DNA from: a virus
IMG/VR virus record: IMGVR_UViG_3300031673_000115
Location: 1-45,144 of that record
Reading direction: 5' to 3' (one strand)
DNA length: 45,144 nt
Both the position numbers and the translations under genes were made by a program. This document shows, in pieces, positions 128 through 42,652 of this stretch; position 1 is the first letter of the stretch, and every line of letters starts with the position of its first letter. The notes under the pieces were generated by a model. That model was given only the letters and a program-made list of their open reading frames with translations. It was not told the origin of the DNA and searched no databases.

Positions 128-821
128 CGTTGCATTCAGTCTTAAGATGTTTTATGATCTCCGCAAAACTAAAATCTTTTAATTCTTTTTCCATTGTCTT
201 TTCTCCTGCTCCCTCTCCGGGCGTCGCAGCCTCTCCGGCCACTTCTTTATTTATTTTTGCTGCCGTGATTGCAGCTAACCGCATAGCGCCGCTAAACGCT
301 GGGCGGTCATTATTGCTATTAAGGCCAGCAATTGCCTTTAATTCCTCTATTTTTTCGGCAACCCAGCGCTTACCACTTTCTGGAATAAAATTCCAAACAG
401 CTTCTTGGCTGCACGTGTCGCACTTAATAGCTTCTTCTTTCATGTCTGGTGGGTGATATGTGACAACTACATGATGTAAAATACCATCAATCTGCTTTTG
501 TGCGCTTGCAACAATAGTGCCGATAATTTTTCTATCGGTATCCCCCTTTTTCAGGTGATTCTTAAAAAAACTAACTCCCTTAAGCACGATATTTTTTATT
601 GATTCTATCGCTCTCCGTGGCCAGCTAATAACTTCTGGATTATCATCACCCACCACTTCCGGGCTACTCTCCCCTTCGTGTGCAAAACTATACAGCTGGA
701 AAAATGGGTGCGGGTCTGATGTTTTAATTAATGCAAGGTCTTCCGGGTCAATCATAGATAATATTTCTGATTGATCGGAGGCGTTAATCTTTGCGATTAC
801 TGTTGTTATGCTTTTAATCAT
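1..821 (-). CDS. Putative prohead protease-scaffold protein, N-terminal part (continues across the junction)
   Basis: The start is ATG at 821, overlapping the stop of the upstream methyltransferase as ATGA. The frame is open to base 1 and continues at 45017 down to a stop at 44714, giving about 374 residues. The N-terminal ~130 residues look like a compact domain with His-containing motifs (SFAHEGES, FFKNHLKKGD) of the kind seen in XkdF-like putative phage proteases. The middle is Ala/Gly/Glu-rich and the C-terminal third is Lys/Glu-rich and predicted coiled coil, as in scaffolds. It lies between portal and capsid genes, where protease or scaffold genes normally sit. The protease assignment is inferred from position and general appearance; I cannot point to a certain catalytic triad. 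Only the part left of the junction is in this span. Confidence 0.6.
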   Translation of the reverse strand, partial: MIKSITTVIAKINASDQSEILSMIDPEDLALIKTSDPHPFFQLYSFAHEGESSPEVVGDDNPEVISWPRRAIESIKNIVLKGVSFFKNHLKKGDTDRKIIGTIVASAQKQIDGILHHVVVTYHPPDMKEEAIKCDTCSQEAVWNFIPESGKRWVAEKIEELKAIAGLNSNNDRPAFSGAMRLAAITAAKINKEVAGEAATPGEGAGEKTMEKELKDFSFAEIIKHLKTECNAKARDLVTIDDLRDDRTFNPIFEEVETLKAQLKAVEDEKLKM

Positions 822-1354
822 CTAATTCTTTTTACCCATGAATTATCAGGGAATATTTTATCCGGGCTACCGAGCAATTCCCCGACGGCCTTAACAACCC
901 CAGGGAACTTAACCAGATAGTCATGTCCACAAAGCCACCCCCCACGAAAAACCTTACTCTTCCATGCATTAATATCGTCATACACATCTTTATACTCATG
1001 CCCAGCGTCAATATAGACGAGCCCAACACTTTCGTCTTCAATATTTTGAGCAGCGGTGATTGAATAATCTCGGAAAATACTAATATTGATTCTGCCCTGC
1101 ATATTTTCAAGAAATCTTGAATATATTTCGTCCATGTCAACCTTGTCTGTTATATCGCCAATACCCGACACCCATGGATCAATCGCTAAAACAGAATTAA
1201 AATGATCAGAAAAAATTAAGGTACCATCCCCTTCATACACTCCGACCTCAATCATATTAATATTTTTAGTAAGTGTTATTTTATCAATATATTCAATCAT
1301 ATTAAGCAGACCAGCTTTTGATTGATTATCTCTCATTACTGGATAATTGTCCAT
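818..1354 (-). CDS. Class I SAM-dependent methyltransferase (Methyltransf_24-like)
   Basis: 178 residues. Motif I is MIEVGVYEGDGT near residue 35. A later VYIDAGHEYKDV and a GGWLCGHDY segment match the aspartate/HDY signatures of small-molecule and sugar O-methyltransferases of the Methyltransf_24 type. The start ATG at 1354 has AAGGAG 8-10 bases upstream. The gene overlaps the 3' end of portal by 29 bases and the next gene by ATGA, so it is embedded in the head operon. Its target is unknown. With a sugar cassette in the same operon, methylation of a glycan is one possibility, but that is inference. Confidence 0.75.
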   Translation of the reverse strand: MDNYPVMRDNQSKAGLLNMIEYIDKITLTKNINMIEVGVYEGDGTLIFSDHFNSVLAIDPWVSGIGDITDKVDMDEIYSRFLENMQGRINISIFRDYSITAAQNIEDESVGLVYIDAGHEYKDVYDDINAWKSKVFRGGWLCGHDYLVKFPGVVKAVGELLGSPDKIFPDNSWVKRIR

Positions 1355-7685: not shown

Positions 7686-7689
7686 AATT

Positions 7690-7926
7690 ATGAAAATTGA
7701 AAGAGAATTTTGTATTGCAATTTTGGAGGAAAACGGCTGGTTTTATGATGGCGAGTACTATAGCAAGAATAACTTGTTATCATTTGATATAAGCGATGAT
7801 TTAGAAATAACCCCGCTTGACGGGGACGGCGACCGGCCGCCAATCCCGATAAACAAGTATGTGCTACTCGGATATTTAATTCATCACCATCAACTATGTT
7901 ATGATTATGAGTGGCCGAAACAATAG
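7690..7926 (+). CDS. Hypothetical acidic protein
   Basis: 78 residues, rich in Asp, Glu and Tyr, with a central DGDGDRPPIP segment. The ATG is 4 bases after the previous stop with a weak AGGA. Not recognised; acidic DNA-mimic-type roles are conceivable but unsupported. Confidence 0.5.
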   Translation: MKIEREFCIAILEENGWFYDGEYYSKNNLLSFDISDDLEITPLDGDGDRPPIPINKYVLLGYLIHHHQLCYDYEWPKQ

Positions 7927-7935
7927 GAGGATTAA

Positions 7936-8478
7936 ATGAAACTAAACTTAAATGAATTTTTTAAAATTGAAAAGGAACAATTTGAAAAAATGACCGTTGA
8001 CGACAAATTCCGTCAGGCGCTTATTTGGTATTGGGATAATCCCTATCTTTGGGGCGAGGAAAACGCAAAAGGGGCCGACTGCTCCGGAGCGATATGTTTT
8101 GCATTAATGGTAGCAACCGAAAAGCCAATCAGGTTGACAGCAAGCGGGTTATATTATGAGATTTTTATTGATCAAATCTCGCCCGATAACCCCGGCGTGC
8201 TATTTTGGACAACCCGAAAACGTTTAGTCTATCCCGGAAAAACCTATGAGATAGGGGATATCTGCCATGTTGCCGGTTTTGTCGGTGATAATGTTTTGCT
8301 TAATATGACACCACCAAAAGCTAAATTTGAAACTTTGTGGGACGTTGGGCGTGATGGGGTAATAACTGATGACTATGAACTTGATACGCGCGGAATCAAC
8401 TGGCCAGCATTCCAAAAAATCTCCGACTCTCGGACCTGGAACCTGGACTGGGAATTATTGGATATAATGGAGGAATAA
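7936..8478 (+). CDS. NlpC/P60-family peptidase, candidate endolysin
   Basis: 180 residues. The catalytic cysteine is C49 in AKGADCSGAICF, preceded by NPYLWGE. The likely catalytic histidine is H111 in GDICHVAGFVGDN. These match the Cys-His arrangement of NlpC/P60 D,L-endopeptidases that cut peptidoglycan stems. There is no signal peptide, so release would need a holin. It lies among early/middle genes rather than beside the late operon, unusual for a lysin. It could alternatively act on intracellular substrates. AGGAGG precedes the ATG. Confidence 0.7.
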   Translation: MKLNLNEFFKIEKEQFEKMTVDDKFRQALIWYWDNPYLWGEENAKGADCSGAICFALMVATEKPIRLTASGLYYEIFIDQISPDNPGVLFWTTRKRLVYPGKTYEIGDICHVAGFVGDNVLLNMTPPKAKFETLWDVGRDGVITDDYELDTRGINWPAFQKISDSRTWNLDWELLDIMEE

Positions 8479-8524
8479 ATGAAAATAAATAATGAAAATA
8501 AATTAATTATTTTGCATTTAGGGG

Positions 8525-8553
8525 TTGACTTCTACAACTAATTGTAGTATTAT
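8525..8553 (+). promoter_or_regulatory. Rightward promoter P2 with TACAA-CTAA-TTGTA operator
   Basis: -35 TTGACT (8525-8530), 17-base spacer, -10 TATTAT (8548-8553). The spacer holds TACAACTAATTGTA (8533-8546), an inverted repeat with 5-base arms. About 80 bases here (8521-8602) are nearly identical to 18671-18753, including the leader and ribosome binding site. Confidence 0.85.
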
Positions 8554-8599
8554 ATATATAGAGAGTGCAACAAAAGCACAAACCTTGAGGAGGGTGAAT

Positions 8600-9394
8600 A
8601 TGAACGGAAAAGAATTTTTGAGACTGTACGGGAAAAAATTGACAGAACTGGCAATAGTCGACCAGCTGGATTATAGCCACGTAGAGTTACAGTCAGGCCA
8701 GTGGGTAGCCTGTGGTATCTCCGATGATGGGACGGAATTCACGACATGGATCACCGATGGGAATTCAGATTATGGCGTAATAGAGAATTACGGGTATGTC
8801 TCTCTTGAGTCAGACGTTGACCTTGACGAACCTGTAATGACAATTGAGAATTTAGGGTGTTTGCAAAACGCTCTAATCATCGGCTCACCGGATGATTTTT
8901 GCCAGTACGACGACGATATGTCAGACAAAATAGTTATATTGTCTGACAGCGGGGAGGTTATCCTGCAGGAGTCCAGGGAATTGTTGGGCAATTTTTTCCC
9001 AACCGACCGGATAATCACTCCGGTAATATCTGACTACACCGTAACTATCCGGGTAGAGGATATTTTTTCCAGCGAAATAAACACGGTCATAATGGAGCTG
9101 GATAAATGTATTGAGTACGACGCTCCCCACTGGGTTCGTGAGCAATACAGCAGCGAGGATATTGCTACCCACATCGTAACAACTGACACAGACTATGTTT
9201 TTATTGATATGATCCTACTAATGGCCCGCATGATAGACGGCAAACTATCCAAATGGACAGACCTCCCCTGTTTTGGCGACAAGCCCCCCGTTGGTAGCTC
9301 ATATCCCTGGTGGGTATATGACGGGCATTGGTGCATAATTGGGGAGTGCGCCAACGATCTAAAAATCGTCACCTATGATTATTTTGAGGAGTAG
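8600..9394 (+). CDS. Hypothetical acidic protein
   Basis: 264 residues from the ATG at 8600. GAGGAGGG is upstream, and an earlier in-frame start would lie inside promoter P2. The protein is strongly acidic (many Asp/Glu), with scattered Trp and a C-terminal SYPWWVYDGHW segment; no transmembrane segments. It is the first gene behind P2, so its expression is likely tied to that operator. I do not recognise the family. Confidence 0.65.
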   Translation: MNGKEFLRLYGKKLTELAIVDQLDYSHVELQSGQWVACGISDDGTEFTTWITDGNSDYGVIENYGYVSLESDVDLDEPVMTIENLGCLQNALIIGSPDDFCQYDDDMSDKIVILSDSGEVILQESRELLGNFFPTDRIITPVISDYTVTIRVEDIFSSEINTVIMELDKCIEYDAPHWVREQYSSEDIATHIVTTDTDYVFIDMILLMARMIDGKLSKWTDLPCFGDKPPVGSSYPWWVYDGHWCIIGECANDLKIVTYDYFEE

Positions 9395-9428
9395 ATCGGA
9401 ACAATTGACCGATTTGCTCTCCTTGTTT

Positions 9429-9467
9429 GGGGGCTCCGGCCCCCTTGTCTGCCCCTGATGCCGGGGC
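9429..9467 (+). terminator. Tandem GC-rich hairpins after the 8600 gene
   Basis: GGGGGC-TCCG-GCCCCC (9429-9444) is followed by TTGTCT. A second hairpin, GCCCC-7-GGGGC (9451-9467), comes next. The T-run is poor, so the pair may be a weak terminator or an mRNA-processing/stability element between the 8600 gene and the next. Confidence 0.5.
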
Positions 9468-9515
9468 ACCGATGATGGCCATGGCAGGCCGAAACAAAAC
9501 CTTGAGGAGGGTGAA

Positions 9516-9737
9516 GTGAGAACGAGAGAAGAGCATATTCGATGGGCAAAAACAAAAGCCCTAAAGCATGTAACAAGAGGAGATTTTGAAAAGGCATTTC
9601 GTTCCATGGTGTCATGTCTCAACAAACACAAAGAAACGCGAGGCCACATCGCAATTGAGTTGGGCTTAAATCTGATGATAAATGGCTTTCTAAATAATGA
9701 AAAATCCGTTAGGGATTATATTAATGGGTTCAACTAA
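9516..9737 (+). CDS. Hypothetical phage protein (helical, GTG start)
   Basis: 73 residues from GTG at 9516, with GAGGAGGG directly upstream. It starts RTREEHIRWAKTKALKHV and has an LNKHKETRGH segment. I recognise this pattern as a widespread small phage protein of unknown function. The same leader (CCTTGAGGAGGGTGAA) precedes several other genes here. Confidence 0.65.
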   Translation: MRTREEHIRWAKTKALKHVTRGDFEKAFRSMVSCLNKHKETRGHIAIELGLNLMINGFLNNEKSVRDYINGFN

Positions 9738-9741
9738 TAAT

Positions 9742-9820
9742 TAACTGCGATTAGTAATAGTAAGGGGGCCTGCTTCCGTTGGCTGACGGCCCCCACTTTT
9801 AAAACCTTGAGGAGGGTGAA
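9742..9820 (+). repeat. Repeated hairpin-leader module, copy 1
   Basis: It contains TAACTGCGATTAGTAATAGT, then a hairpin (GGGGGCC at 9764-9770 pairing with GGCCCCC at 9788-9794) followed by ACTTTT, then the leader CCTTGAGGAGGGTGAA. The same module recurs at 10147-10226, each copy before a paralogous membrane protein gene. Confidence 0.8.
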
Positions 9821-9821
9821 C

Positions 9822-10145
9822 ATGATCCGCAAAATAATGAAAACAATAGGCGTGCTGTTAATAGCTGCGATAGTAGCAGCGATAGTAGTTTTATGCATAA
9901 AGGTCCCTATAGCAGGGATACCCATAGCGGGTATGTGCGTATTGAGTAATCTTGTTATATGGATCGTGCAACTGATTGATGCGGAAACATATAGTGACAT
10001 AGAAGAAGTCACCGATACCCTTTGGCACAAAATTAATCTTGCCGTGTATACGGCAGGCATAGGGTGGCTGGTTATAGGGTTGATATATCTTTGGGAAAAT
10101 GACTCAGAGATCGAAGAGAAAATAAAAAAGTGGCGTAAAAAATAA
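9822..10145 (+). CDS. Small membrane protein, paralogue of the next gene
   Basis: 107 residues from the ATG at 9822. Three hydrophobic segments lie at about 8-26, 30-52 and 72-92. The C-terminus is charged (SEIEEKIKKWRKK). The C-terminal third (HKINLAVYTAG..., YLWEN) matches the 10228 product, so the two arose by tandem duplication along with their leaders. Topology would allow a holin or a superinfection-exclusion role; neither is shown. Confidence 0.65.
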   Translation: MIRKIMKTIGVLLIAAIVAAIVVLCIKVPIAGIPIAGMCVLSNLVIWIVQLIDAETYSDIEEVTDTLWHKINLAVYTAGIGWLVIGLIYLWENDSEIEEKIKKWRKK

Positions 10146-10146
10146 G

Positions 10147-10226
10147 TAACTGCGATTAGTAATAGTGATAGGGGGCCTGCTTCCGTTGGCTGACGGCCCC
10201 CACTTTTAAAACCTGAAGGAGGGTAA
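10147..10226 (+). repeat. Repeated hairpin-leader module, copy 2
   Basis: Second copy of the 9742-9820 module, with the same stem (GGGGGCC at 10171-10177, GGCCCCC at 10195-10201) and ACTTTT. The leader is slightly altered (ACCTGAAGGAGGG). It could act as an attenuating terminator or an RNA-processing site between duplicated genes. Confidence 0.8.
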
Positions 10227-10227
10227 T

Positions 10228-10569
10228 ATGATAAAAAAAATAATGATTACAGTTGGAATTTTGTTTTTAATTGCAGCTGTAGTAACTATAATTATTTTAA
10301 GTATAAAATTTCCAAAACTGATGATATGGGTTGGAATATTAGCCATTATAGCTAATTTTATTCTTTGGTGTTTATACATGATCGCGCTGATTGATGAAAT
10401 TGATGAAACATGGCATAACATTAACCTCGGAATTTATTCAATTGGACTATATTATATAGTTATTGGATTAAAATATCTTTGGGAAAATTCCGAAGAAATC
10501 GAAGAAAAAATTAAGATTTCTCGGAATAGAAATACCACAGGAGGGAAATATGATAGACAAAGAAATTAA
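10228..10569 (+). CDS. Small membrane protein, paralogue of the previous gene
   Basis: 113 residues with three hydrophobic segments (about 6-27, 30-53, 73-92) and a charged C-terminus. It shares the HNINLGIYSIG/YLWEN region with the 9822 product. Its last 20 bases overlap the next small gene. Codon choice is more AT-rich than in its paralogue, suggesting that one copy came from a related phage rather than from recent duplication. Confidence 0.65.
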   Translation: MIKKIMITVGILFLIAAVVTIIILSIKFPKLMIWVGILAIIANFILWCLYMIALIDEIDETWHNINLGIYSIGLYYIVIGLKYLWENSEEIEEKIKISRNRNTTGGKYDRQRN

Positions 10570-10684
10570 CATTAACAAAAAAATGAGATTTTTAGACAGA
10601 GCCACCAATGCTGTGGCAATAATTGGATTAATTTTATTATCAGTAGTTGGGACAATATTGATAATCTGGATAAAAACATTTTAA
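10550..10684 (+). CDS. Very small single-pass membrane protein
   Basis: 44 residues. The N-terminus is charged, followed by a hydrophobic span at about 21-41 and a WIKTF end. The ATG at 10550 has CAGGAGGG at the right distance and overlaps the previous gene's end, which supports it as real. Confidence 0.6.
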   Translation: MIDKEININKKMRFLDRATNAVAIIGLILLSVVGTILIIWIKTF

Positions 10685-10689
10685 AACTG

Positions 10690-11003
10690 AATAACCGCTA
10701 ACAGTTCACCCGGTGCAACTCCGGGAAGCGGAGGAGTGCCATGAAAGTCGGGATTTTATGGCCCGGTGGCGAGGTAGCGTGATCCGGGCGGCGGCCCTCT
10801 ACCGACGCATCCACCTGATCGGGTAGACGCCTAACGCGGCGGGATAAAAAAGGCGTTACCCTGGCCGGGGTTAAGGCTATCATCATAGGCCGCCACGGGG
10901 AAGGCGGCGCTGAGGTAAGCGCGAGAAGTGCCAGCCCCTGTATTTTTAAAACAGGCTGTTTGGTGAGGGGATCGACACCGGTTCGATGCCGGAATGATGA
11001 TAT
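10690..11003 (+). ncRNA. GC-rich structured RNA candidate with tRNA-like 3' end
   Basis: A stretch of over 300 bases with no convincing gene but high GC (38 of 60 bases at 10741-10800) in an AT-rich genome. Many short perfect stems are visible: CCCGG/CCGGG (10710-10726), GCCAT/ATGGC, ACGCCT/AGGCGT and GCCGCC/GGCGGC. Near the 3' end CCGG-TTCGATG-CCGG (10978-10992) mimics a T-arm. Right after it, ATGATGATA (10994-11002) pairs with TATCATCAT (10878-10886), like an acceptor stem. This suggests a folded RNA with a tRNA-like domain. I cannot match it to a known RNA family. Confidence 0.6.
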
Positions 11004-11009
11004 TTTTAG

Positions 11010-11077
11010 AGAGCCTTGACCGACACCCCTTCAGGGTGGTGTTGGGGTCGTGGCCGGTTCGAATCCGGCAGGCTCTA
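11010..11077 (+). tRNA. tRNA-like element, non-canonical (possibly degenerate tRNA)
   Basis: A perfect 7-bp acceptor stem (AGAGCCT 11010-11016 with AGGCTCT 11070-11076) plus unpaired A, and a perfect T-arm GCCGG-TTCGAAT-CCGGC (11053-11069). The part between them is only 36 bases, against about 41 in a normal tRNA, and folds mainly as CACCC-CTTCA-GGGTG with a 5-base loop. No standard D-arm and 7-base anticodon loop can be drawn. No 3' CCA is encoded. It is either a degenerate tRNA or a tRNA mimic that ends the structured RNA upstream. Confidence 0.5.
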
Positions 11078-11096
11078 ATTTTTATAGGAGGGTAAA

Positions 11097-11306
11097 ATGC
11101 TAAAAGAAATGAAACCAGAAAACAGGTATATGATTATCAATATTGATGAGTCATACGCTAAAGAAGTGTATGAAATATTGAAAGCGGGGCAGATCGAAAA
11201 AGGCGAATGGCCAGAAGGAAATATTTCTTTTGATGAGTGGGTTGATAAAACATGGCCGCTATCTTATGGTGAAAAATTATTTCGCGATTCTATAAAAGGC
11301 AGATAG
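11097..11306 (+). CDS. Hypothetical protein
   Basis: 69 residues with an MIINIDESYAKEVYEIL start region and a Trp-containing acidic middle. AGGAGGG is 6 bases before the ATG. First gene after the structured RNA region. Not recognised. Confidence 0.55.
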   Translation: MLKEMKPENRYMIINIDESYAKEVYEILKAGQIEKGEWPEGNISFDEWVDKTWPLSYGEKLFRDSIKGR

Positions 11307-11314
11307 GAGGATAT

Positions 11315-11572
11315 GTGGAAAAATTAAACGCTTATTATCATCAAATAGAATTGGCGTTAAGAGAATATAATCATGAAAAGGAGCGTCTCATGAAAAAAAC
11401 TGATATATTGATAGCCTTAAAAAATATTGTTCCTTCTGCTGAACTTGCAGCAAAGCAAATAACACACTGCAAAGAGTTGTTTATTCTAGGATCAATCAAG
11501 GCAAAAATTAAGAATCTCATTAAAAGGATAGAGGGAGGAGAAAATGGAAAAACTGACAAAACATCAGGCTGA
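11315..11572 (+). CDS. Hypothetical helical protein (GTG start), paralogue of 12105
   Basis: 85 residues from GTG at 11315, with AGGAGG upstream. The overlapping ATG at 11313 is out of frame and short. The N-terminus (YYHQIELA...YNHEKERLMKK) matches the start of the 12105 gene product, so they are paralogues with divergent C-termini. Mostly helical, possible coiled coil. Overlaps the next gene by 29 bases. Confidence 0.55.
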   Translation: MEKLNAYYHQIELALREYNHEKERLMKKTDILIALKNIVPSAELAAKQITHCKELFILGSIKAKIKNLIKRIEGGENGKTDKTSG

Positions 11573-11741
11573 TTGTCTTGATAGAATAAAAAGTAAATTT
11601 AAGGCCAATTCTTGGTTTTGTGAAATGGATTGCTTTCTGCTATTCGGGCGGGCGCACTATGTTTTACAAACATTAACAAAAAAAGGGTATTTGAATTATA
11701 TGATCTCTTTTGGTGATTGGGTTTATTTGTATAAAGATTAA
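11544..11741 (+). CDS. Small winged-helix-like protein
   Basis: 65 residues. LTKHQADCLDRIKSKF, then a second helix (HYVLQTLTKKGYL) and a C-terminal beta pair (FGDWVYLYK), arranged like a compact winged-helix DNA-binding domain. It is one of the few regulator candidates in the genome. A truncated relative is at 13474. The fold is inferred by eye only. GGGAGG precedes the ATG. Confidence 0.55.
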   Translation: MEKLTKHQADCLDRIKSKFKANSWFCEMDCFLLFGRAHYVLQTLTKKGYLNYMISFGDWVYLYKD

Positions 11742-11752
11742 GGAGGTAAATA

Positions 11753-12088
11753 ATGGATTATAAAAGACAATTAGACAGGCTTGACGATGCACTTATTGAT
11801 AATATAATAAATACTCATGACGATGAAATATTAAAAGAAGCATTAACCGATTACGGGGATAAAGCTCATTTAGCTAATCAGGTGCGAAAGATAATAAAAA
11901 AAATAAGTTATTTTGAAAAAATATTAAAAGATAATGAAGGTTATTTTATAAGGCATTACAAATCAAAAAATATTTGGCGCCGTTTTTTATGGAAACTAAT
12001 CGGATATAGAACTTTTCAAAACATTGTTTATGATGTGGCGGATGTATTTTTTCATGCCGGATTAGAGAATATGCTTAAAAAATTGTAA
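11753..12088 (+). CDS. Hypothetical protein
   Basis: 111 residues, rich in Lys, Asp and Ile, mostly predicted helix, with RHYKSKNIWRRFLWKLIGYR as a basic aromatic stretch near residue 64 that could touch membrane or nucleic acid. AAGGAGG precedes the ATG. Not recognised. Confidence 0.55.
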   Translation: MDYKRQLDRLDDALIDNIINTHDDEILKEALTDYGDKAHLANQVRKIIKKISYFEKILKDNEGYFIRHYKSKNIWRRFLWKLIGYRTFQNIVYDVADVFFHAGLENMLKKL

Positions 12089-22231: not shown

Positions 22232-23083
22232 ATGGCAATATTAAAAGGCTTATCACCAAGAATGGCAGAGGTCGGTAAAATTAAAATCGGCGGGAAAGGG
22301 CAGGAGCTAACCAGCAAGACAGGAACAAAATACCGTCAACCAGTAAGGTTTGATCATTTCGTGGTAACTACTACGGAACGCGATGTAAATGGAGATTTTA
22401 AAATTGATCAAGAACTCATGGCAAAGCTCGGGAAAGATCCGAGGGAATTAAAAATCAGACTACCTTTTGATAGTATCGATATTGTTTTTTTTACCGAATA
22501 TCAGCGATATACCGGAAATAAAAAGGTATGCAGCGGTAACGGCATAAAAGCAACAACTGAAGGGCGAACGGTTGATTGTAACCCGGATACCTGCGACTTT
22601 TTCAAAAATAATAAATGCAAAGTTACCGGAATTCTTTCTTGTTTTCTGGAAGAGTCCAAAACTCTCGGCGCTGTCCATAAATTCAGAACTCATTCATATA
22701 ACGCAGTTGCTTCTATCCTGGCGTCACTTGACTTTATCGCAAATCGGACCAACGGGATTTTAATGGGACTCCCGCTAAAATTGGTCATGGTGAAAAAAAC
22801 AACGGCCGAACATGGAACAATTGATTTTGTGACAATTGTTATTGACGGGGAGGGTATGGATGCGATGCGGGATGCAGCAATGCATGAAATTCAGGCAAGG
22901 AAACTGCTTAACGTCGATATCGAAAAAATAGAATCCGCTGCAATTGCAAGCGGCATCGTAAACGATAACGATAACCCGCAGGATATACAAGAAGAATTCT
23001 ATCCTGAGCCGGTAACCGTTAGGCCATTGGCGGAGCGAATAATTAAGAGGAACGCACCCCCAGACCTTTTTGAGGATAAATAA
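22232..23083 (+). CDS. Recombination directionality factor-like (Gp3-like) protein
   Basis: 283 residues. The layout is that of phage proteins annotated Gp3-like/RDF-like or 'hydrolase or metal-binding protein': a start of ILKGLSPRMAEVGKIKIG, a VRFDHFVVTT segment, then four cysteines (C89 region ending in CNPDTCDFF, and NKCKV) that probably bind zinc, and a SYNAVASILASL stretch. No integrase is visible, so a directionality role is not supported here. Its place after the exonuclease suggests a strand-annealing or recombination-partner role. Confidence 0.65.
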   Translation: MAILKGLSPRMAEVGKIKIGGKGQELTSKTGTKYRQPVRFDHFVVTTTERDVNGDFKIDQELMAKLGKDPRELKIRLPFDSIDIVFFTEYQRYTGNKKVCSGNGIKATTEGRTVDCNPDTCDFFKNNKCKVTGILSCFLEESKTLGAVHKFRTHSYNAVASILASLDFIANRTNGILMGLPLKLVMVKKTTAEHGTIDFVTIVIDGEGMDAMRDAAMHEIQARKLLNVDIEKIESAAIASGIVNDNDNPQDIQEEFYPEPVTVRPLAERIIKRNAPPDLFEDK

Positions 23084-35866: not shown

Positions 35867-36351
35867 TTGCCAGTATCCTTTTTGGTAATGTCAGCCACTA
35901 ATCGGATAATCTCTCCGGAATCACCAGTAATGTGTTTTTGCATAAAATGCGCTTCAACATTACCGGATTGCAAAGATACCGGGCCTAGTTTTAACGTTAC
36001 CCCAATTTCCTCATTCATTTTTGCGGCGTATGGGGTATCAAAACCAACGTTTATTTCTTTTGGGTCTTTTCTGTATAATTTTTTATTTGGCTTCCCGCCT
36101 GCCTCAAACATGCTCGAATCACCTATAAATTTTGATCCAACAAAAACAGACCCCGACCCGCGTAAGTGCCCGGTTAATTTTGGGGGAATGGCCGCCGCTG
36201 CAGGTGACCCATTAACAATATTATTAAGTAATTGCAAACCGCCTGCCGCAAGCGCTCTATCGGTAGCTTTCTCAACAATATTAAAATATTTTTTAGTACT
36301 GGCCGGGATTGTATTGGAAACTAATTGATATTTCAAATATACACCTCCCAA
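35863..36351 (-). CDS. HK97 gp10-like head-tail protein
   Basis: 162 residues. A helix-rich beginning (DRALAAGGLQLLNNIVN) and GFDTPYAAKMNEE match the gp10-like family motif of the form tpYA...E.G. Ends acidic and Lys-rich. It overlaps the neighbours on both sides, between head closure and tail terminator. Confidence 0.75.
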   Translation of the reverse strand: MGGVYLKYQLVSNTIPASTKKYFNIVEKATDRALAAGGLQLLNNIVNGSPAAAAIPPKLTGHLRGSGSVFVGSKFIGDSSMFEAGGKPNKKLYRKDPKEINVGFDTPYAAKMNEEIGVTLKLGPVSLQSGNVEAHFMQKHITGDSGEIIRLVADITKKDTGK

Positions 36352-36662
36352 TGTGACGATACAAAACCAGGAGCCTTAAACTTTGACTTAATGACATACT
36401 GTTTGTCTTTCGTTTCCACATCATCACCGTCAATAGTTTTGATTTTGATTTTATCGTCCCACCCAATGATAGTATCATCATCGGATATTATAATCAATGT
36501 CTGTGCCATTAGCTCCTGACCATCTTTCCCAATGACTGGCTTATTAACAGGCTCAGTCCTAACCGACAAATTAGGATAAGCTACCGATTCGGTACGCGTT
36601 CCCCAACTATCAACACTCGCGGAGATTATATCAATTGTGGCGTTATCATAAATGCTGATCAT
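36333..36662 (-). CDS. Head-tail stopper/closure-like protein
   Basis: 109 residues, beta-rich, with a D-x-I-...-DKIKI pattern typical of gp16-like head-closure rings. Located directly behind the sugar cassette, where normal head-tail genes resume. The assignment is by position and beta composition. Confidence 0.6.
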   Translation of the reverse strand: MISIYDNATIDIISASVDSWGTRTESVAYPNLSVRTEPVNKPVIGKDGQELMAQTLIIISDDDTIIGWDDKIKIKTIDGDDVETKDKQYVIKSKFKAPGFVSSHWEVYI

Positions 36663-37297
36663 TTTTTCCTTTTAAGCTCCAAAGTTAAAAATCTATTTTC
36701 ACCGTCTTCTTTTCTTCTGATAACTTTGTATTTTTTTAGTATGCTCATTATATCGGTTTCGTTGGTGTAACAAGCAAGGTTTATTTCGTGAGTTGTTTTG
36801 TATGCGTCTTGCTGAAAAAGAGTTGCTCCGTTGAATTTAAATTGCATAATTATATTCCTGATGCCACTTTTATTTATTTTATCAAAAAATAAACCGTAGT
36901 ATTCCGCATCAGGTATATGTTGGATAACATTAAAACAAACAGCAACATCAAATCCCGGTTTGTTTAAAAGGTCAAGTCCATTTACCGGGTCTGGCATTAA
37001 GTAAACAGTACCTTTGATTTTTTTATTGCATAGTCTTTCAATTGCGCCGTTACATGACCTTTCTGATATATCCATTCCTGAGTATTGGCAAGTATTTTTT
37101 TCTGAAACCCATTCCCCGAATATGCCACCTCCGCAACCGATATCAATAATGCTTTTATCATTAAAATCAAAATCCATTACCGCATTCGAAAATTGATTTT
37201 TTAATCCGTCAAGCATTTTCTCTTCAACATCTATATGCGACGTTGTCCGGCTAACCCTTTTTTCCCATGCATTAATATAATTTTCATTATTGATCAT
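36659..37297 (-). CDS. Class I SAM-dependent methyltransferase at the end of the sugar cassette
   Basis: 212 residues. Motif I is IIDIGCGGGIFGEWV (near 49-63), with the acidic motif II residue in GMDISERS and motif IV region VCFNVIQHIPDAE. It resembles Methyltransf_11/25 sugar and small-molecule methylases. Its start overlaps the NanE-like gene and its stop overlaps the head-closure gene. The likely role is O- or N-methylation of a glycan made by the cassette; this is inferred from context only. Confidence 0.8.
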   Translation of the reverse strand: MINNENYINAWEKRVSRTTSHIDVEEKMLDGLKNQFSNAVMDFDFNDKSIIDIGCGGGIFGEWVSEKNTCQYSGMDISERSCNGAIERLCNKKIKGTVYLMPDPVNGLDLLNKPGFDVAVCFNVIQHIPDAEYYGLFFDKINKSGIRNIIMQFKFNGATLFQQDAYKTTHEINLACYTNETDIMSILKKYKVIRRKEDGENRFLTLELKRKK

Positions 37298-37910
37298 AAT
37301 TCCCCCTTGATCTTCCTATCATAGCATAAAAATATTTTTTTGTCAATTTATACTGGTCGCTAATCGCAGCACCAATACATATTTTATCAATCCCGCATTT
37401 CCGTATAATACTAACTCTATTTTCAGAGTTAATATTCCCCTCTGCAATTATTTTATTTTTTTCACCATTATCAATTAAATACTTCATTAAATCGTAAGGT
37501 GGTACAGTTGTTCCAAATACTCCGAGCGCGGTTGTATAATATTTGGGAATCAGCCCCATAGCTTGAAGATTGTCGTAATCCTCATTTTTTTGCAGGTCGG
37601 CAACGATATAAACTTTTTTTCTTTCACAGTATTGAAAAATATTTTCAAGATTTTCTCTGTTTTCAACTCGGCAGTCAATCGCTATATACTTTGCCCAGTT
37701 AGCAACGTTCTTCACCTCTGTAATTGTCGGGGTGATATATGGCATAGTTCGCGGGTTCTGGACTTTGATTTTGCATAGCCCGATAAGCGGAACTCTGCAC
37801 ACAATTGGCTTATCAGTTCTTATCATAGTTGCCCCGGCATTAATGCATTCCCTTGCTATCTCCGTTGTTGTTTGTTCTGATTTGCCTTGGACAGATACTA
37901 TAAATTCCAC
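37287..37910 (-). CDS. nanE: N-acylmannosamine-6-phosphate 2-epimerase (NanE type)
   Basis: 207 residues, slightly shorter than bacterial NanE (about 229). The (beta/alpha)8 phosphate-sugar epimerase shows FIVSVQG at the start, VPLIGLCKIKV with the catalytic Lys (K47), YIVADLQ with the aspartate (D105) and KIIAEGNINS with the catalytic Glu (E157), followed by ICIGAAIS, the phosphate-binding end. It interconverts GlcNAc-6-P and ManNAc-6-P. In bacteria this enzyme is usually catabolic; beside NeuB it would supply ManNAc-6-P for sialic acid synthesis. It starts just behind the NeuB stop. Confidence 0.8.
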   Translation of the reverse strand: MEFIVSVQGKSEQTTTEIARECINAGATMIRTDKPIVCRVPLIGLCKIKVQNPRTMPYITPTITEVKNVANWAKYIAIDCRVENRENLENIFQYCERKKVYIVADLQKNEDYDNLQAMGLIPKYYTTALGVFGTTVPPYDLMKYLIDNGEKNKIIAEGNINSENRVSIIRKCGIDKICIGAAISDQYKLTKKYFYAMIGRSRGNYDQ

Positions 37911-37911
37911 A

Positions 37912-38730
37912 CTAGAACCCCCTATAAATCAATTTTATTTTTCTTTCTTTCTCGCTCAACACCCTTTCGCCGCCTATAATTTTCTCAACGTCTTTTATGC
38001 GATCCATTATATACGCCATTTCCAGCGGGTCGCTTGATACGGTTTTGTGATCGGAGCCCTTCATATCATTATCAAGCGTGAAATGTCTTTCGATATATTT
38101 TGCTCCTGCCATTATCGCAAATGGAATCCCATAGCCGTGTAAATCATGAGAAGAATATCCAATTTCTGCGGTTGATATCCCCCTTAATGTTTTTAGGGTT
38201 TGCAAATTCATATCAGAAGTCAAACATGGATAAACAGAAATACAGTGCAAGATTATATCAGCATTATCAACCCATGGACTTAGTAAAATCTCTTCTTCTT
38301 CGTGCATCCCGGTAGATACTATTATTTTATAATTACGTGACCCGCGATTAGAAAAAAAACTATTATCCGTGAATAATTGACTTGGCAATTTTATATGTTC
38401 GGTTTTTATATCTTTTAAAAATTCAAAACTTTCTCCATCAAAAGCGGAGCATGAGAAAACCATCCCGAGCCCTTCAACCAATTTTTTAAGGTCGCGTATT
38501 TGATCGAAACTAAATTCAAGCGCCTTTCTATGTTCGTAATAATTTTCACCGAATGAATCGCTTAAGTTGCGTAATTTTATTTTTACGTTTTCCGGGATAG
38601 AATCAATATCACGTTTTTGGAATTTTACAGACCATGCCCCAAGGCTTTTAGCGCTGATAACCATTTTTCTGGCTAAATCCATTTCTCCGTTATGATTGCA
38701 CCCAACTTCAATTATTACTTTAGTTTTCAT
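37912..38730 (-). CDS. neuB: Sialic/nonulosonic acid synthase (NeuB type, lacking SAF domain)
   Basis: 272 residues from ATG at 38730 (GAGGG upstream; a TTG two codons earlier is too close to it). NeuB barrel motifs: IIEVGCNHNG (6-15), WSVKFQ (33-38), IVSTGMH (137-143), LHCISVYP (161-168), GYSSHD (191-196, usually G.SDH), and ERHFTLD...GSDH (214-228). It condenses PEP with ManNAc or ManNAc-6-P. Typical NeuB proteins are about 340-350 residues with a C-terminal SAF/antifreeze-like domain that covers the active site. That domain is absent. Coupled to the phosphatase gene by ATGA. Confidence 0.88.
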   Translation of the reverse strand: MKTKVIIEVGCNHNGEMDLARKMVISAKSLGAWSVKFQKRDIDSIPENVKIKLRNLSDSFGENYYEHRKALEFSFDQIRDLKKLVEGLGMVFSCSAFDGESFEFLKDIKTEHIKLPSQLFTDNSFFSNRGSRNYKIIVSTGMHEEEEILLSPWVDNADIILHCISVYPCLTSDMNLQTLKTLRGISTAEIGYSSHDLHGYGIPFAIMAGAKYIERHFTLDNDMKGSDHKTVSSDPLEMAYIMDRIKDVEKIIGGERVLSEKERKIKLIYRGF

Positions 38731-39218
38731 ATGCAATTTCCCTCAAAAAGATAATCAATAAATTCTCTTACTGCGCCATGACCCCCGTTATTTTTGCACA
38801 CATAAAAAAACGGGCCGTTAAGCATTTTATTATAATCACCAACAACCGCAGGGAACCCAACAGCGCTAATCAATTCCTGATCGTTTGTATCGTCGCCAAT
38901 AAATGCGACTTCTCCCAAATCAATACCAAGATCAGAGCAAATCAATCCCGCTTTGTCAAGTTTCCCGCCACTTGCCTCACCATCAAAAAAATAATTAAGC
39001 GTTCCGAGTTGGATAAGTTTTTTGGCACGGGCTTTATTTATCCCGCCTTTTTCGCTGGTAATCATGGCTGTCTTTACTCCAGCATTATTAAGCAAATATA
39101 TCCCGCGGCCATCTTTGTGGGAAAATACTTTTAGCTGTTCGCCGGCTTCTGAATAATAACAATTCCCGTCTGTAAGCGTACCGTCAACATCCATGATAAG
39201 TAATTTTACTTTCTTCAT
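38727..39218 (-). CDS. HAD-type sialate/KDO-8-P phosphatase (KdsC/NANP-like)
   Basis: 163 residues, typical of the C0 HAD subfamily that forms tetramers (KdsC, NANP, NeuA-linked phosphatase domains). Motif I DVDGTLTDG (D10, D12), HKDGRGI (35-40), motif II ITSEKGG (S55), Lys of motif III (K86), motif IV IGDDTND (D109, D110, D113), and NGGHGAVRE (144-152). It would remove the 9-phosphate from a nonulosonic acid before activation. A KDO-8-P role is possible by family but does not fit NanE in the cluster. ATGA overlaps on both sides. Confidence 0.85.
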   Translation of the reverse strand: MKKVKLLIMDVDGTLTDGNCYYSEAGEQLKVFSHKDGRGIYLLNNAGVKTAMITSEKGGINKARAKKLIQLGTLNYFFDGEASGGKLDKAGLICSDLGIDLGEVAFIGDDTNDQELISAVGFPAVVGDYNKMLNGPFFYVCKNNGGHGAVREFIDYLFEGNCI

Positions 39219-39832
39219 TCTAAATCTTCCTTTCGATCAACATCAATATTAAATTTGTCAAAGAAAAAAATTTTATTATTTGTGTCAAGGATATGCTTTT
39301 CTTTTAACATATCTTTTTTAAAAATATAAAAAGCACCTGTTTCTTTCCATACCTTTTTCTTTACGCATCCGTTATCGGTTCTGCTTTCCTGATTAAAATT
39401 AACCTGCTTGCCCTGGTTAGAGTAATAAAACCCATCCGGCATAATATGAACAGCAACCCCGGCCTGTGCCCGCATGCTTTTTTTAAACTCACTAATCCAT
39501 TTTTTCATATCGGTAAGAGATCGCCGCGGGCTGGTTACCTGCAAAAATATGTAAGCGTCTGCGTCAATCCCTGATTTCAAAATCTCCTCACACGTTCGAT
39601 GGGTATCACCTGCAAAGTACTCCGACCGTTCCCGCACCTCAAATACTCCAGGCACCTGTTCCGGCAAATCTAATTTCGGACCGCAGTCATGGAATAAATA
39701 ATATGGATATCCTAATTGCAAGGCTTTTTCTACGGTATGCATATATAAAGGCTTCCCTTTATAATTTTCAAATATTTTTCCGGGAAAACGTTTTGAGCCT
39801 TTGCGCATTAATGTTATCGTTACTATTTTCAT
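39215..39832 (-). CDS. neuA: CMP-sialic acid synthetase (NeuA type)
   Basis: 205 residues, near the size of compact bacterial cytidylyltransferases. The N-terminal nucleotide loop reads LMRKGSKRFPGK (8-19, usual form ARGGSKRIPGK). The central LQVTSPRR (97-104; usual LQPTSPLR) and C-terminal FNIDVDRKEDLE, with the metal-binding Asp pair, are present. It activates a nonulosonic acid with CTP. KDO cytidylyltransferase is the alternative, but the phosphatase/NeuB/NanE set favours sialic-type acids. Overlaps the glycosyltransferase gene by ATGA. Confidence 0.85.
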   Translation of the reverse strand: MKIVTITLMRKGSKRFPGKIFENYKGKPLYMHTVEKALQLGYPYYLFHDCGPKLDLPEQVPGVFEVRERSEYFAGDTHRTCEEILKSGIDADAYIFLQVTSPRRSLTDMKKWISEFKKSMRAQAGVAVHIMPDGFYYSNQGKQVNFNQESRTDNGCVKKKVWKETGAFYIFKKDMLKEKHILDTNNKIFFFDKFNIDVDRKEDLE

Positions 39833-41487
39833 TTCAATTTATCCAAACAACTTTTAATCTCTTCGTCAAACAATCTTACAGTTTCCTTAATGTCCCACAC
39901 ATTAGCCCGTTCAAGGCTGCGAGCCCCGAACTCTTCTCTTAATTTTTGGCTATTAAGCATGGCGGATAGTTCGCGTTCAAGCTGATCTTGATTCATGCAT
40001 TTTATTCCAGCATCTCCAACGACTTCTTCAATAACTCCACCTTCATATAGATAGACTATCGGCAAACCTGTTGCCATTGCTTCAATAACTGCATGGCTCA
40101 TTGTTTCCCGGAATGTTCCGTTGGCATGCACGTAGACGGATAATTTAGCAAGATGTGGATTTTTATTCTCATATATTTTTACCGTTTTATCGTAATACAT
40201 TCTTTCACGTTGTAGCGGAGCGGGATTTTTATTAATCAAATCAGAAAACATCAAACATTCCGATTGTGGATTTTTTGTTAAAATATTATCTACAAATCCA
40301 GCCCACCATTTTGGTATTTTCCCCGGGCTCCACCTTGTGATTCTGCCAAAGATAGACCGTGGGTAATCTGGCAATAATTTATAGTCATTTAAATCAACCC
40401 CTCCCTTTATTACTTTTGCGTCAACTCCATGATCTGAAAGACGCTGCTTCCATGTTTCCGTCAAACAAACAGAAGATAAAAACGGGCCATAGTCCCAACA
40501 GTTGGTTGAGTGTACGAGATTGATTGATTTCATTTTATGCGGGAACACCCTGATTGATTCTTTTGTACTCATAAAATGCTCTAATATGTATAGGTCTGCC
40601 TTGGGGACATTATCAAACATATGCATAGAATGAACACCATAACAATCGGAAATAATAGCCCTTGTTATATCGGCATGGTTTTCTGTCTTGCCAGAAAAAG
40701 ACAAGTGTGCTATTTTTGGCTCTCTACCAATTATTTTAATTTTTGGTTTTTTATCTATCACATCACAAAGAGAGATTTTGTCAAAAGGTTTAAGCTCAGT
40801 TCCAATGCTTTTTACCCTATGTTTCCACTGTGAAAAATTAAGATAGAATTGATTTGCTCTTTTATATTTCCTTAATCTTGATTCGTCTTTTGTCTCTCCT
40901 GTATAAGTGCTTTTATAATGATAATTGTCGCATGTTTCATCGCCTACCATACCAAAACCACAAAGATAAATCGGATTTGCTCCGGTAAGCAGCGCAAGGT
41001 TTACAGCTGCAAGCCCCGACAGACTGCCGGAATAAAGACCATCCTCTATTGAAATTGATGCACGATCTTCTTTTGTTTTAAAAACCGTAACTTTTTGTGA
41101 TGGTTTCATTTGTACCGTATTACGAACAAAAACACGACCTTTGAATTTTTTAATATCGTATGTAGTTATTGTTAAAAATCTTTGATCAAGAAATAAAAAC
41201 CATTCGAACCCGTCATAGTCTTCTATAACGTGATTTATTCCTATCGTATGCTTATTATCAAAAAATTCCCATCCCTCTTTATCAATAATATTTTTTAAAG
41301 AAGGGCCACAGCCGACTATATAACATGGCTGATCTTTCCAAACATCTTCTATATTGCCATAAGGTCCCAAGGCTTTATTTAAATCACCATCCATATAGCC
41401 GGCATTTTTGAAATATGCAGCAACTTGTTTTGTGGGTGCGTTCCTTTTTGGTGGTGATATGTTGTGTAAATGTAATATTTGACCCAT
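39829..41487 (-). CDS. Two-domain glycosyltransferase: DUF115/GT42-like plus GT4-like
   Basis: 552 residues. Residues ~55-235 show CYIVGCGPSLKNI (55-67), TIGINHV (81-87), and GSLSGLAAVNLAL then GANPIYLCGFGM (154-180). This is the pattern of DUF115/MptE-like domains, shared with Maf flagellin glycosyltransferases and related to GT42 sialyltransferases. Residues ~255-550 form a GT-B fold with a FGRITRWSPGK segment (380-390) and the GT4 E-x7-E motif (E461-E469 in RETMSHAVIEA). This protein could both move a nonulosonic acid and add another sugar. The acceptor is unknown. It is the first gene of the cassette, right behind the minor capsid gene. Confidence 0.8.
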   Translation of the reverse strand: MGQILHLHNISPPKRNAPTKQVAAYFKNAGYMDGDLNKALGPYGNIEDVWKDQPCYIVGCGPSLKNIIDKEGWEFFDNKHTIGINHVIEDYDGFEWFLFLDQRFLTITTYDIKKFKGRVFVRNTVQMKPSQKVTVFKTKEDRASISIEDGLYSGSLSGLAAVNLALLTGANPIYLCGFGMVGDETCDNYHYKSTYTGETKDESRLRKYKRANQFYLNFSQWKHRVKSIGTELKPFDKISLCDVIDKKPKIKIIGREPKIAHLSFSGKTENHADITRAIISDCYGVHSMHMFDNVPKADLYILEHFMSTKESIRVFPHKMKSINLVHSTNCWDYGPFLSSVCLTETWKQRLSDHGVDAKVIKGGVDLNDYKLLPDYPRSIFGRITRWSPGKIPKWWAGFVDNILTKNPQSECLMFSDLINKNPAPLQRERMYYDKTVKIYENKNPHLAKLSVYVHANGTFRETMSHAVIEAMATGLPIVYLYEGGVIEEVVGDAGIKCMNQDQLERELSAMLNSQKLREEFGARSLERANVWDIKETVRLFDEEIKSCLDKLK

Positions 41488-41500
41488 TTTTATTCTCCTT

Positions 41501-42652
41501 TTATTTCTTCAATATTTTTATAAATTGATCCAATATTGAGTCTCTTATAATTTTTTCAGTACTCCTGTCAAGCCTACTATTACCAAGATTTAATTTACCA
41601 ACCTCTTCCCTAACGGTTTCATTCATTACCTTTAATTGCATAGAATTAAATCCAGATGTGTTCTTATCTGTAAAATAATCCTTTGGAGCAGATTGTTTTT
41701 TTACGTTCGATCTCTCCGACACTGGCACATGACTTGTGCGCGTTGGGTGAATTTCTGTTTTACCATTTGCAAAATCAATATACGGTTCTATGCCCCTTCT
41801 TTCCAGCACCTCACGAAAAACAATAGTTATGTTATGCAGACAATTCGGATGGAAAGGGGGTTCCATTGTAAGTGGCGGGAAATCCTTGTCGTTGCCGGAT
41901 ATAGAGAAAATTTTTCCCTCAAAAGGGATGCATATTTCCGTAGTAGTGTTATGACTATCCACCTGCACCAAATCAGAGCCAACATTTGCCGCTATATTAA
42001 TCGTGCTTTGACTTTGTGCTTCCCGCGTTCTTGTCCTGGCCACTAATTCGGCGTAAGTGTTAGCTTTATATCTGCGTGATCCGGCCTTGAGGATATACGG
42101 ATCGGATAGCTGATCTTTAAGCGCCTGCAATATTCTGTTTTTTGTTTCCTGTATAGTTCCATTTGTTGATAATGCAACCGCTATTTCAGCATTAAGTTTT
42201 TGCTCTGTTATTATAGCCTGTTGCGTTCTGCGCAATAGCCCAGTAGTCATTTTCCTACCATCATCTAACGCAGAAGAAAAAATCAAAAGAGTATCATCAG
42301 TTAATACTTTTATCGCCCCTTTATGATATTGACTCTCAAGTACTATTTTAGGTATTTTATTTTTAATTACGTCAAGTGCTATTTTTTTCATTTTCTTAAT
42401 TTCGTACTTTGCTTTAATCAAATAACTTTGCGGGATTGCCGCTACTGCATATTCAGAAAAAATAATATTCATATCGTTATATGCTGCATTTATTTGGATT
42501 AAAGCCTTGTTCCAGTCTGCCGATGATGAATAAGCTCCGCTCGCTGCCAGTGTTTTTATTTTATTTATTTTTGCAGCCGGCACTTCAAGCCTTTTAATCA
42601 TGCGGATAGAGCGCTCTTCTAATTTTTTTCTATCTTCTGTCAATCCCATCAA
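41501..42652 (-). CDS. Minor capsid protein 2 / MuF-like head protein
   Basis: 383 residues. AELVARTRTREAQSQ, the DLVQVDSHNTTTEICIPFEGK segment and PPFHPNCLHNITIVF are signatures of Phage_min_cap2/MuF-type domains. The N-terminal half is helical. It usually follows portal in such phages; here it comes after the capsid and head-completion genes. It may enter the cell or bridge portal and capsid. It is the last head gene before the sugar cassette. Confidence 0.8.
   Translation of the reverse strand: MMGLTEDRKKLEERSIRMIKRLEVPAAKINKIKTLAASGAYSSSADWNKALIQINAAYNDMNIIFSEYAVAAIPQSYLIKAKYEIKKMKKIALDVIKNKIPKIVLESQYHKGAIKVLTDDTLLIFSSALDDGRKMTTGLLRRTQQAIITEQKLNAEIAVALSTNGTIQETKNRILQALKDQLSDPYILKAGSRRYKANTYAELVARTRTREAQSQSTINIAANVGSDLVQVDSHNTTTEICIPFEGKIFSISGNDKDFPPLTMEPPFHPNCLHNITIVFREVLERRGIEPYIDFANGKTEIHPTRTSHVPVSERSNVKKQSAPKDYFTDKNTSGFNSMQLKVMNETVREEVGKLNLGNSRLDRSTEKIIRDSILDQFIKILKK

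Follow-up and report, generated by a model that had tools for sequence, protein, structure and literature searches.

A cassette of six contiguous genes on the minus strand (36659-41487) of IMGVR_UViG_3300031673_000115 probably constitutes a phage-encoded protein-sialylation system, by which activated Neu5Ac would be made and then transferred, most likely to a virion protein. The window (the whole 45,144 nucleotides analysed) is a complete phage contig with an exact 127-bp terminal repeat. An earlier note on this DNA described five sugar enzymes followed by a methyltransferase among the structural genes, amounting to a near-complete sialic-type pathway with its own glycosyltransferase. Coordinates, strand and gene order proved exact on re-examination; the HMM and structure searches proposed in that note placed the genes in the expected families rather than unrelated ones; each assignment is backed by families, catalytic residues and structure prediction; and the pathway is refined to a 9-phosphate route fed by NanE (Table 1).

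Table 1. Cassette genes, bordering genes and an associated methyltransferase of the window
Feature	Coordinates	Strand	Basis or remark
Methyltransf_24 methyltransferase	818..1354	-	adjoins portal gene
Small late protein, putative head closure	36333..36662	-	right border of cassette slot
SAM-dependent methyltransferase	36659..37297	-	Methyltransf_12 5.5e-11
NanE-type N-acetylmannosamine-6-phosphate 2-epimerase, 207 aa	37287..37910	-	NanE family and residues
NeuB-type synthase, 274 aa	37912..38736	-	PF03102
KdsC-fold HAD phosphatase, 163 aa	38727..39218	-	HAD family, PDB 3e81
NeuA-like CMP-sugar synthetase, 205 aa	39215..39832	-	PF02348 and motifs
Two-domain glycosyltransferase, 552 aa	39829..41487	-	N-terminal Maf/GT42-like, C-terminal GT4/GT-B
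Maf/GT42-like N-terminal domain	40726..41367	-	sialyltransferase superfamily, residues about 41-254
Minor head protein	41501..42652	-	left border of cassette slot

The slot lies between a minor head gene (mcp2) and a small late gene whose product gave no match in the family searches. The transferase gene is separated from mcp2 by 13 bp and overlaps the NeuA gene by 4 bp; the NeuA and HAD genes overlap by 4 bp and the HAD and NeuB genes by 10 bp, a gap of 1 bp precedes the NanE gene, and the methyltransferase gene overlaps the NanE gene by 11 bp and the small late gene by 4 bp. No terminator-like site was found on the minus strand inside the cassette, and from this and the contiguity of the genes we infer that the cassette is co-expressed with the virion genes. 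An assembly chimera with a bacterial contig, the outcome that the earlier note had considered fatal, is ruled out because the window has its terminal repeat and the cassette has the same neighbouring genes in independent contigs.

NanE is normally catabolic, as in the nanATEK operon of E. coli. In the phage, it would convert host GlcNAc-6-P to ManNAc-6-P, a committed biosynthetic step that appears to be new for this enzyme. It matches the NanE family (5.6e-16) and keeps Q8, R31, K47, D105 and E157, the reference residues being Gln11, Arg40, Lys63, Asp124 and Glu180 of SaNanE (PMC8482478). The Gln, Lys, Asp and Glu are invariant in eight phage sequences, as is the Arg40 equivalent except for a Lys in the relative L110. 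Arg208, a substrate-binding residue that contacts the C3/C4 hydroxyls (PMC8482478) and lies in the motif V-G-[SG]-A-x-T-R, is replaced by Asn or Asp in all eight phage NanEs aligned (Asp185 in the window), and therefore the substrate may differ. Some bacterial NanE-like proteins likewise lack this arginine, having Ala or Met. NanE is present in every complete cassette, and was not a neighbour of any of 77 other viral NeuBs; NeuB was found beside none of the 37 cellular NanE loci sampled.

NeuB would condense ManNAc-6-P with PEP to form Neu5Ac-9-P. Its annotated start is TTG, with an ATG 6 nt downstream. It matches PF03102 (6e-48), possesses the barrel with the PEP, metal and catalytic residues, and shares invariant columns E24, K52, K128, S131, H214, H235 and D246 with the NeuB of Moritella. 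PF03102 is the only domain found by Pfam, the SAF (antifreeze-like) domain being absent; all cassette NeuBs end before the SAF region and are similar in length to the Leptospira chain 6ncs (290 aa). They form one clade (support 100/100), and the best match in bacterial genomes has 36% identity and no cassette.

The HAD phosphatase is predicted to release Neu5Ac from Neu5Ac-9-P. It scores above the NCBIfam KdsC YrbI cut-off (114.7 bits; cut-off 106.95) and does not reach that of NF058599 (111.6 bits; cut-off 180), and its best PDB match is 3e81 (BT1713 family). An alignment with BT1713 and E. coli KdsC shows that it retains Glu56, Arg64 and Lys67 (BT1713 numbering), whereas KdsC has Arg at 56 and Thr at 67. 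The phosphatase thus has the HAD motifs and the Glu56/Lys67 pair of the KDN-9-P / Neu5Ac-9-P phosphatases (HAD C0), a pair that, from the study of BT1713, we take to mark sialic-9-phosphate phosphatases rather than KdsC. Two different HAD types occur in the cassettes, never both together: the window, L124 and L125 have the KdsC type, and the remaining cassettes a distinct small HAD. The window type is absent from G1-G3, which have the small HAD. In L124, NeuA and HAD are a single ORF, an arrangement like that of animal CMAS (3ewi is among the PDB matches).

NeuA would then activate Neu5Ac to CMP-Neu5Ac. It matches CTP_transf_3 (PF02348, 2.9e-10, above the cut-off), contains the motifs RxGSKRxPxK, QxTSPxR and DxD of CMP-NulO synthetases (NeuA/PseF), and has R10, S13, R15, K19, Q98, T100, P102, D197 and D199 invariant in nine phage homologues. 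NeuA, NeuB and NanE all score under the NCBIfam family cut-offs.

The sugar could instead be another nonulosonic acid (e.g. KDN or a 3/4-modified amino sugar derivative) with the substrates of NanE and NeuB shifted, a possible but rather unlikely reading. It overlaps the preferred one, differing only in the sugar. The loss of Arg208, the KDN-9-P phosphatase family as closest relative of the phosphatase, and a NeuB score below the cut-offs of both NeuB_NnaB and PseI are consistent with it, but NeuB scores higher with NeuB_NnaB than with PseI, the remaining NanE catalytic residues are kept, and the window's cassette lacks the aminotransferase, dehydratase and acetyltransferase of legionaminic or pseudaminic acid synthesis.

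Transfer of Neu5Ac is assigned to the two-domain glycosyltransferase. Its residues 255-552 have a GT-B fold of GT4 type (Glycos_transf_1, PF00534, 2.4e-7; Z 22-26 against GT-B/GT4 structures), resembling TarM, SdgB and polysaccharide glycosyltransferases by structure comparison. Weaker matches are MptE-like and phrog_4603 'alpha-2,3-sialyltransferase', and PF01973 scores 22.7 bits, under its cut-off of 34.6. The AF2 model of the N-terminal domain (pLDDT 89.4) has as its best PDB match the Maf glycosyltransferase 5mu5 (Z 13.6 over 187 residues; Maf_flag10/MptE-like fold), followed by MjHPPK (Z 11.9), CstII (9.5) and GT29 enzymes (8.0-9.4), and Z drops to 4.2 with unrelated folds. As modelled, the domain is nearest by fold to Maf, a flagellin nonulosonic-acid O-glycosyltransferase, and then to the CstII and GT29 sialyltransferases, but because a pterin pyrophosphokinase also has the Maf/GT42 fold, the donor cannot be read from the fold alone. 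Among 14 phage sequences, Asn45 is invariant and His150 (kept in 13) and Tyr155 are nearly so; His150 is a putative match to His188 of CstII. Maf enzymes attach their sugar to Ser/Thr through O-linkage, and CMP-Neu5Ac is accepted by one of them (PMC11339370). By analogy with Maf on flagellin, the N-terminal domain may attach Neu5Ac to Ser/Thr, the most likely acceptor being a virion protein that is modified in the cytoplasm, either before assembly or while it proceeds. The GT4 domain may add another sugar before or after the sialic acid. As the earlier note suggested, the glycan may shield the phage, change its adsorption or block superinfection.

It is unlikely that the product of the same pathway goes to a glycan on the host surface (capsule, LPS or a cell wall polymer) and so changes receptors, blocks superinfection or alters the lysogen surface. 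There is precedent for phages altering the surface glycans of their hosts (PMC6586298), and the likeness of the GT4 domain to TarM, SdgB and polysaccharide glycosyltransferases would suit such an acceptor; against it, neither a flippase nor a membrane anchor nor a polyprenyl-linked transferase was recognised in the cassette, no integrase was found among the proteins scanned, the fold nearest to the N-terminal domain is that of a cytoplasmic protein O-glycosyltransferase, and the slot lies within head genes. That the glycan is attached to the phage's DNA, protecting it from restriction as a hypermodification, is very improbable, although DNA can be a target of phage glycosyltransferases (Pyle 2024, as cited in PMC12619734). 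There is no base-hypermodification enzyme among the Pfam/PHROG matches, and the cassette sits in the late head operon. Sialic acid salvage or catabolism, or diversion of host amino sugars, is scarcely credible despite the usual catabolic role of NanE, as NanA lyase, NanK kinase and a transporter are all absent and every complete cassette carries NeuA and the transferase.

Under the preferred reading of virion-protein sialylation, methyltransferases, and sulfotransferases in relatives, would cap the glycan; both vary between the cassettes of relatives. The methyltransferase of the cassette, which probably decorates the sugar, has homologues in the identical slot in L018/G1, L106, L110, L112 and L114. 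The portal-adjacent methyltransferase is probably a functional member of the cassette because its homologues lie within the cassette in G2, L110, L112 and L114.

An unbiased scan using the minor head protein showed that divergent phages carry the core of transferase, NeuA, NeuB and NanE at this same position. In all, ten cassettes are complete, the window's and those of at least nine relatives; they were found partly without NeuB as query, and the slot is empty in about six relatives. The dN/dS ratios in one relative pair (0.06-0.30) indicate purifying selection; this and the recurrence of the gene order in divergent phages show that the arrangement is not due to chance. The search of related phages suggested in the earlier note has thus revealed a recurrent, optional module of the whole phage lineage. 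INPHARED contains no close DNA relatives of the window and no match to tail protein 29755. As to the host, most of the best terminase relatives listed come from phages of Bacillota and Fusobacteria (at most 42% identity); when 398 genomes of the Streptococcus hillyeri phylum were searched with the major capsid protein, a single match, weak and partial, was obtained. One point against the preferred reading is that the major capsid proteins of cassette-bearing phages show no Ser/Thr or insertion signature that would set them apart as the acceptor.

Like the cassette, the Maf flagellin systems of Clostridium, Campylobacter, Aeromonas and Geobacillus combine a CMP-NulO pathway with a PF01973-type transferase, and act in the cytoplasm on Ser/Thr of a protein that self-assembles (PMC11339370), as is predicted by analogy for the phage acceptor. 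In contrast, the cassette is phage-encoded in a head operon, its transferase is fused to a GT4 domain, and it has a NanE-fed 9-phosphate route and no flagellin. The animal route (GNE kinase step, NANS, NANP, CMAS) shares the phosphorylated intermediate, the phosphatase step and a fusion like that of L124, but in the phage NanE would supply ManNAc-6-P from GlcNAc-6-P, in place of a UDP-GlcNAc epimerase/kinase, and the SAF domain is missing from the phage NeuB. Bacterial NeuABC (Neisseria, E. coli K1) shares the NeuB and NeuA families, whereas the cassette has NanE and a phosphatase instead of NeuC. NeuB clusters of marine and jumbo phages (e.g. MH319754, LR756508) have NeuB without SAF and often a small HAD nearby, but no NanE, another slot and a different NeuB clade. 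We know of no de novo nonulosonic-acid pathway in mycobacteriophage virion glycosylation, which resembles the predicted phage system in that glycans are on virion proteins, namely capsid and tail tube subunits (Freeman 2023, as cited in PMC12619734). A search of 50,697 annotated phage records found no comparable self-contained pathway with a transferase in one head-gene slot, and no prior report of a phage sialic acid pathway was recognised in the open-access literature searched; beyond phage virion glycosylation in general, nothing comparable turned up in these collections and papers.

Virion glycosylation is already known in phages; what had no counterpart in the records and papers searched is a self-sufficient pathway to an activated sugar of sialic type, with its transferase, in one slot between head genes across divergent phages. 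The full proposal is more tentative than sialylation as such: a tailed-phage lineage may make true Neu5Ac from GlcNAc-6-P by a NanE-initiated 9-phosphate pathway undescribed in cells, and O-sialylate its own virion by a Maf-GT4 fusion with variable methyl and sulfate caps. The cassette is a compact enzyme set for sialylating proteins that is amenable to testing. If the proposal is true, NanE would have a new role in biosynthesis, and phages would be able to coat their particles with an acidic sugar that serves animals as a mark of self.

The window is the complete contig of a tailed phage: the same 127 bases open and close it, and genes for terminase, portal, tape measure and distal tail proteins can be identified. 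Six contiguous cassette genes occupy the minus strand between the minor head gene and a small late gene, and their positions agree exactly with the coordinates in the earlier note. Adjacent genes share 4 to 11 bases or are spaced by 1 to 13, and no terminator-like site was found on the minus strand within the block; the tight junctions and the lack of a terminator would fit, without proving, a single transcript shared with the head genes. A strong promoter-like site, called by consensus match (11/12, with TG ahead of the second hexamer), lies immediately ahead of the methyltransferase gene. Elsewhere in the window, a Gp3-like (recombination directionality factor-like) protein matches PF18897 (6e-33), although no integrase was recognised among the proteins scanned, and a Methyltransf_24 gene adjoins the portal gene; the counterpart of this methyltransferase gene lies within the cassette in the related contigs G2, L110, L112 and L114.

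Coordinates of features in the window and in related viral loci
Feature	Record	Position	Strand	Remark
Minor head gene	window	41501-42652	minus	cassette neighbour
Small late gene	window	36333-36662		cassette neighbour, opposite end from minor head gene
Promoter-like site	window	37346-37318		
Gp3-like protein	window	22232-23083		
Methyltransf_24 gene	window	818-1354		
G1 additions	L018	11450-16141		SprT-like, small HAD, TauE/SafE exporter, sulfotransferase, sulfotransferase-methyltransferase fusion, SPASM radical SAM, methyltransferase
Variant slot	L129	8414-11969		
NeuB and proteins with GT29-like motifs	L007 (LR756508.1)	7247-12068		

With a NeuB alignment as query, a scan of IMG/VR, where the gene is common, gave no fewer than 564 viral loci; among the matches listed, three have the cassette together with its head-gene neighbours. 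In INPHARED, NeuB occurs in 3 of 50,697 records, one of them a bacterial contig. A second scan used the minor head protein alone, free of NeuB ascertainment. The genes for glycosyltransferase, NeuA, NeuB and NanE occupy the slot beside it in L106, L108 (G2), L110, L111, L112, L114, L116 (G3), L123 (G1), L124 and L125. The NanE gene of G2 is at the opposite contig end; the G2 contig carries a 127-bp terminal repeat and the ends of G3 overlap inside NanE, so in both the reading was continued from one contig end to the other. L110 is nearly identical to L114, and is the one visible from the minor head gene through the right border. Counted once each, the complete cassettes number ten (window, G1, G2, G3, L106, L110, L111, L112, L124 and L125). 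The slot runs into a contig end in L107 and L122. It is empty, with the minor head gene followed directly by the small protein and the next gene, in L109, L113, L117/L119/L121, L120, L128 and probably L126. L129 has a partial variant encoding GT42-like and NeuA-like proteins, a 348-aa protein without assignment and two Methyltransf_24-like proteins; NeuB was not found up to the contig end. In the tree of major capsid proteins, phages whose slot is empty fall into one supported clade and the window is a long branch of unsure placement. Between L124 and L125, dN/dS of the cassette genes is 0.06-0.30. The decoration genes vary from phage to phage: methyltransferases occur in the majority of cassettes, sulfotransferases in G1, G3, L111 and L124, and a radical-SAM/SPASM protein with a TauE exporter in G1.

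The cassette NeuB matches Pfam NeuB (6e-48), and its PDB relatives are sialic acid and pseudaminic acid synthases; among NCBIfam models it scores 177 bits with NeuB_NnaB and 118 with PseI, neither reaching the cut-off. It lacks the SAF domain. In an alignment with a SAF-bearing bacterial NeuB, the columns E, K, K, S, H, H and D, known from Neisseria NeuB, are invariant. In a tree with 53 other viral NeuBs and 8 from bacteria, the cassette NeuBs group as one clade (support 100/100). NeuA matches CTP_transf_3 above the cut-off and has the motifs R-x-G-S-K-R-x-P-x-K, Q-x-T-S-P-x-R and D-x-D; the methyltransferase matches Methyltransf_12 and relatives. Family scores of NanE, NeuA and NeuB fall below the curated NCBIfam cut-offs; such scores would be expected of a distant branch, but do not prove a shared substrate.

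The window phosphatase exceeds the TIGR01670 cut-off and has the BT1713 family as its top PDB match. Like BT1713, it carries Glu at position 56 and Lys at 67, where the residues of E. coli KdsC are Arg and Thr; the Glu and Lys reportedly mark KDN/sialic-9-P phosphatases in the BT1713 study. The KdsC type is found in the window, L124 and L125, and another small HAD of about 105 aa in G1, G2, G3, L106, L110, L111, L112 and L114. The two never occur together in one cassette, suggesting that a dephosphorylation step is required and can be filled in two alternative ways. In L124, NeuA and the KdsC-type HAD form a single open frame of 383 aa, resembling animal CMAS; they are two genes in its close relative L125, and one of the contigs may thus carry a frame change.

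Within 6 kb of NeuB at 77 other viral loci (L021-L097), tblastn found the small HAD of about 105 aa at 41 and NeuA at 17, and the former may be a general phage nonulosonic-9-P phosphatase. NanE (within 6 kb) and NeuC (single bacterial query) were found at none of the 77 by tblastn, whose sensitivity is limited. In L007, a 484-kb phage record, NeuB adjoins four proteins whose motifs (GNSG ... RFN.AP ... VGSRTD) resemble, by eye, the sialylmotifs of eukaryotic GT29.

The NanE-type protein matches Pfam at 5.6e-16. The S. aureus NanE active site consists of Gln11, Arg40, Lys63, Asp124, Glu180 and Arg208 (PMC8482478). Equivalents of the first five are retained in the phage proteins, except for an Arg to Lys change in L110; the Arg208 position is Asn or Asp in all eight phage sequences. 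Since in the S. aureus Arg208Ala mutant 3.7% of kcat is left and KM rises roughly 10-fold (PMC8482478), phage activity on ManNAc-6-P is plausible and substrate binding is possibly altered. NeuB, NeuA and this HAD were absent within about 1.5 kb on each side of all 37 NanE-like loci, some of them weak partial matches, from three bacterial phyla. In L188 and L189, two genomes from the phylum of a Phycisphaerae MAG, the open frames that contain the NanE-like match are 742 and 797 aa long, possibly fusions.

The full-length transferase model has a pLDDT of 79.5, and residues 255-552 match GT-B/GT4 structures, TarM and SdgB included (Z 22-26). Modelled alone with 14 phage sequences (pLDDT 89.4), the N-terminal domain best matches the Maf glycosyltransferase 5mu5 (Z 13.6, 187 residues, 3.8 A), followed by M. 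jannaschii HPPK (11.9), SteA (9.9) and CstII (9.5); mammalian GT29 sialyltransferases score about 8.0-9.4, and the list later drops from 7.5 to 4.2. Maf proteins, with a CstII-like central domain (pfam01973), add nonulosonic acids to Ser/Thr of flagellin, and Clostridium Maf can use CMP-Neu5Ac (PMC11339370). Because HPPK has the same fold, the fold alone does not fix the donor, and its assignment rests on the adjacent NeuB and NeuA.

According to this sequence- and model-based analysis, host GlcNAc-6-P would be epimerised to ManNAc-6-P and condensed with PEP to Neu5Ac-9-P, which would lose its phosphate, be activated with CTP and be transferred by the Maf-like domain. The cassette very probably makes a CMP-nonulosonic acid; if so, Neu5Ac is a somewhat favoured identity for the sugar. 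Since the head genes include one for a probable cytoplasmic protein O-glycosyltransferase, a virion protein is the somewhat favoured acceptor.
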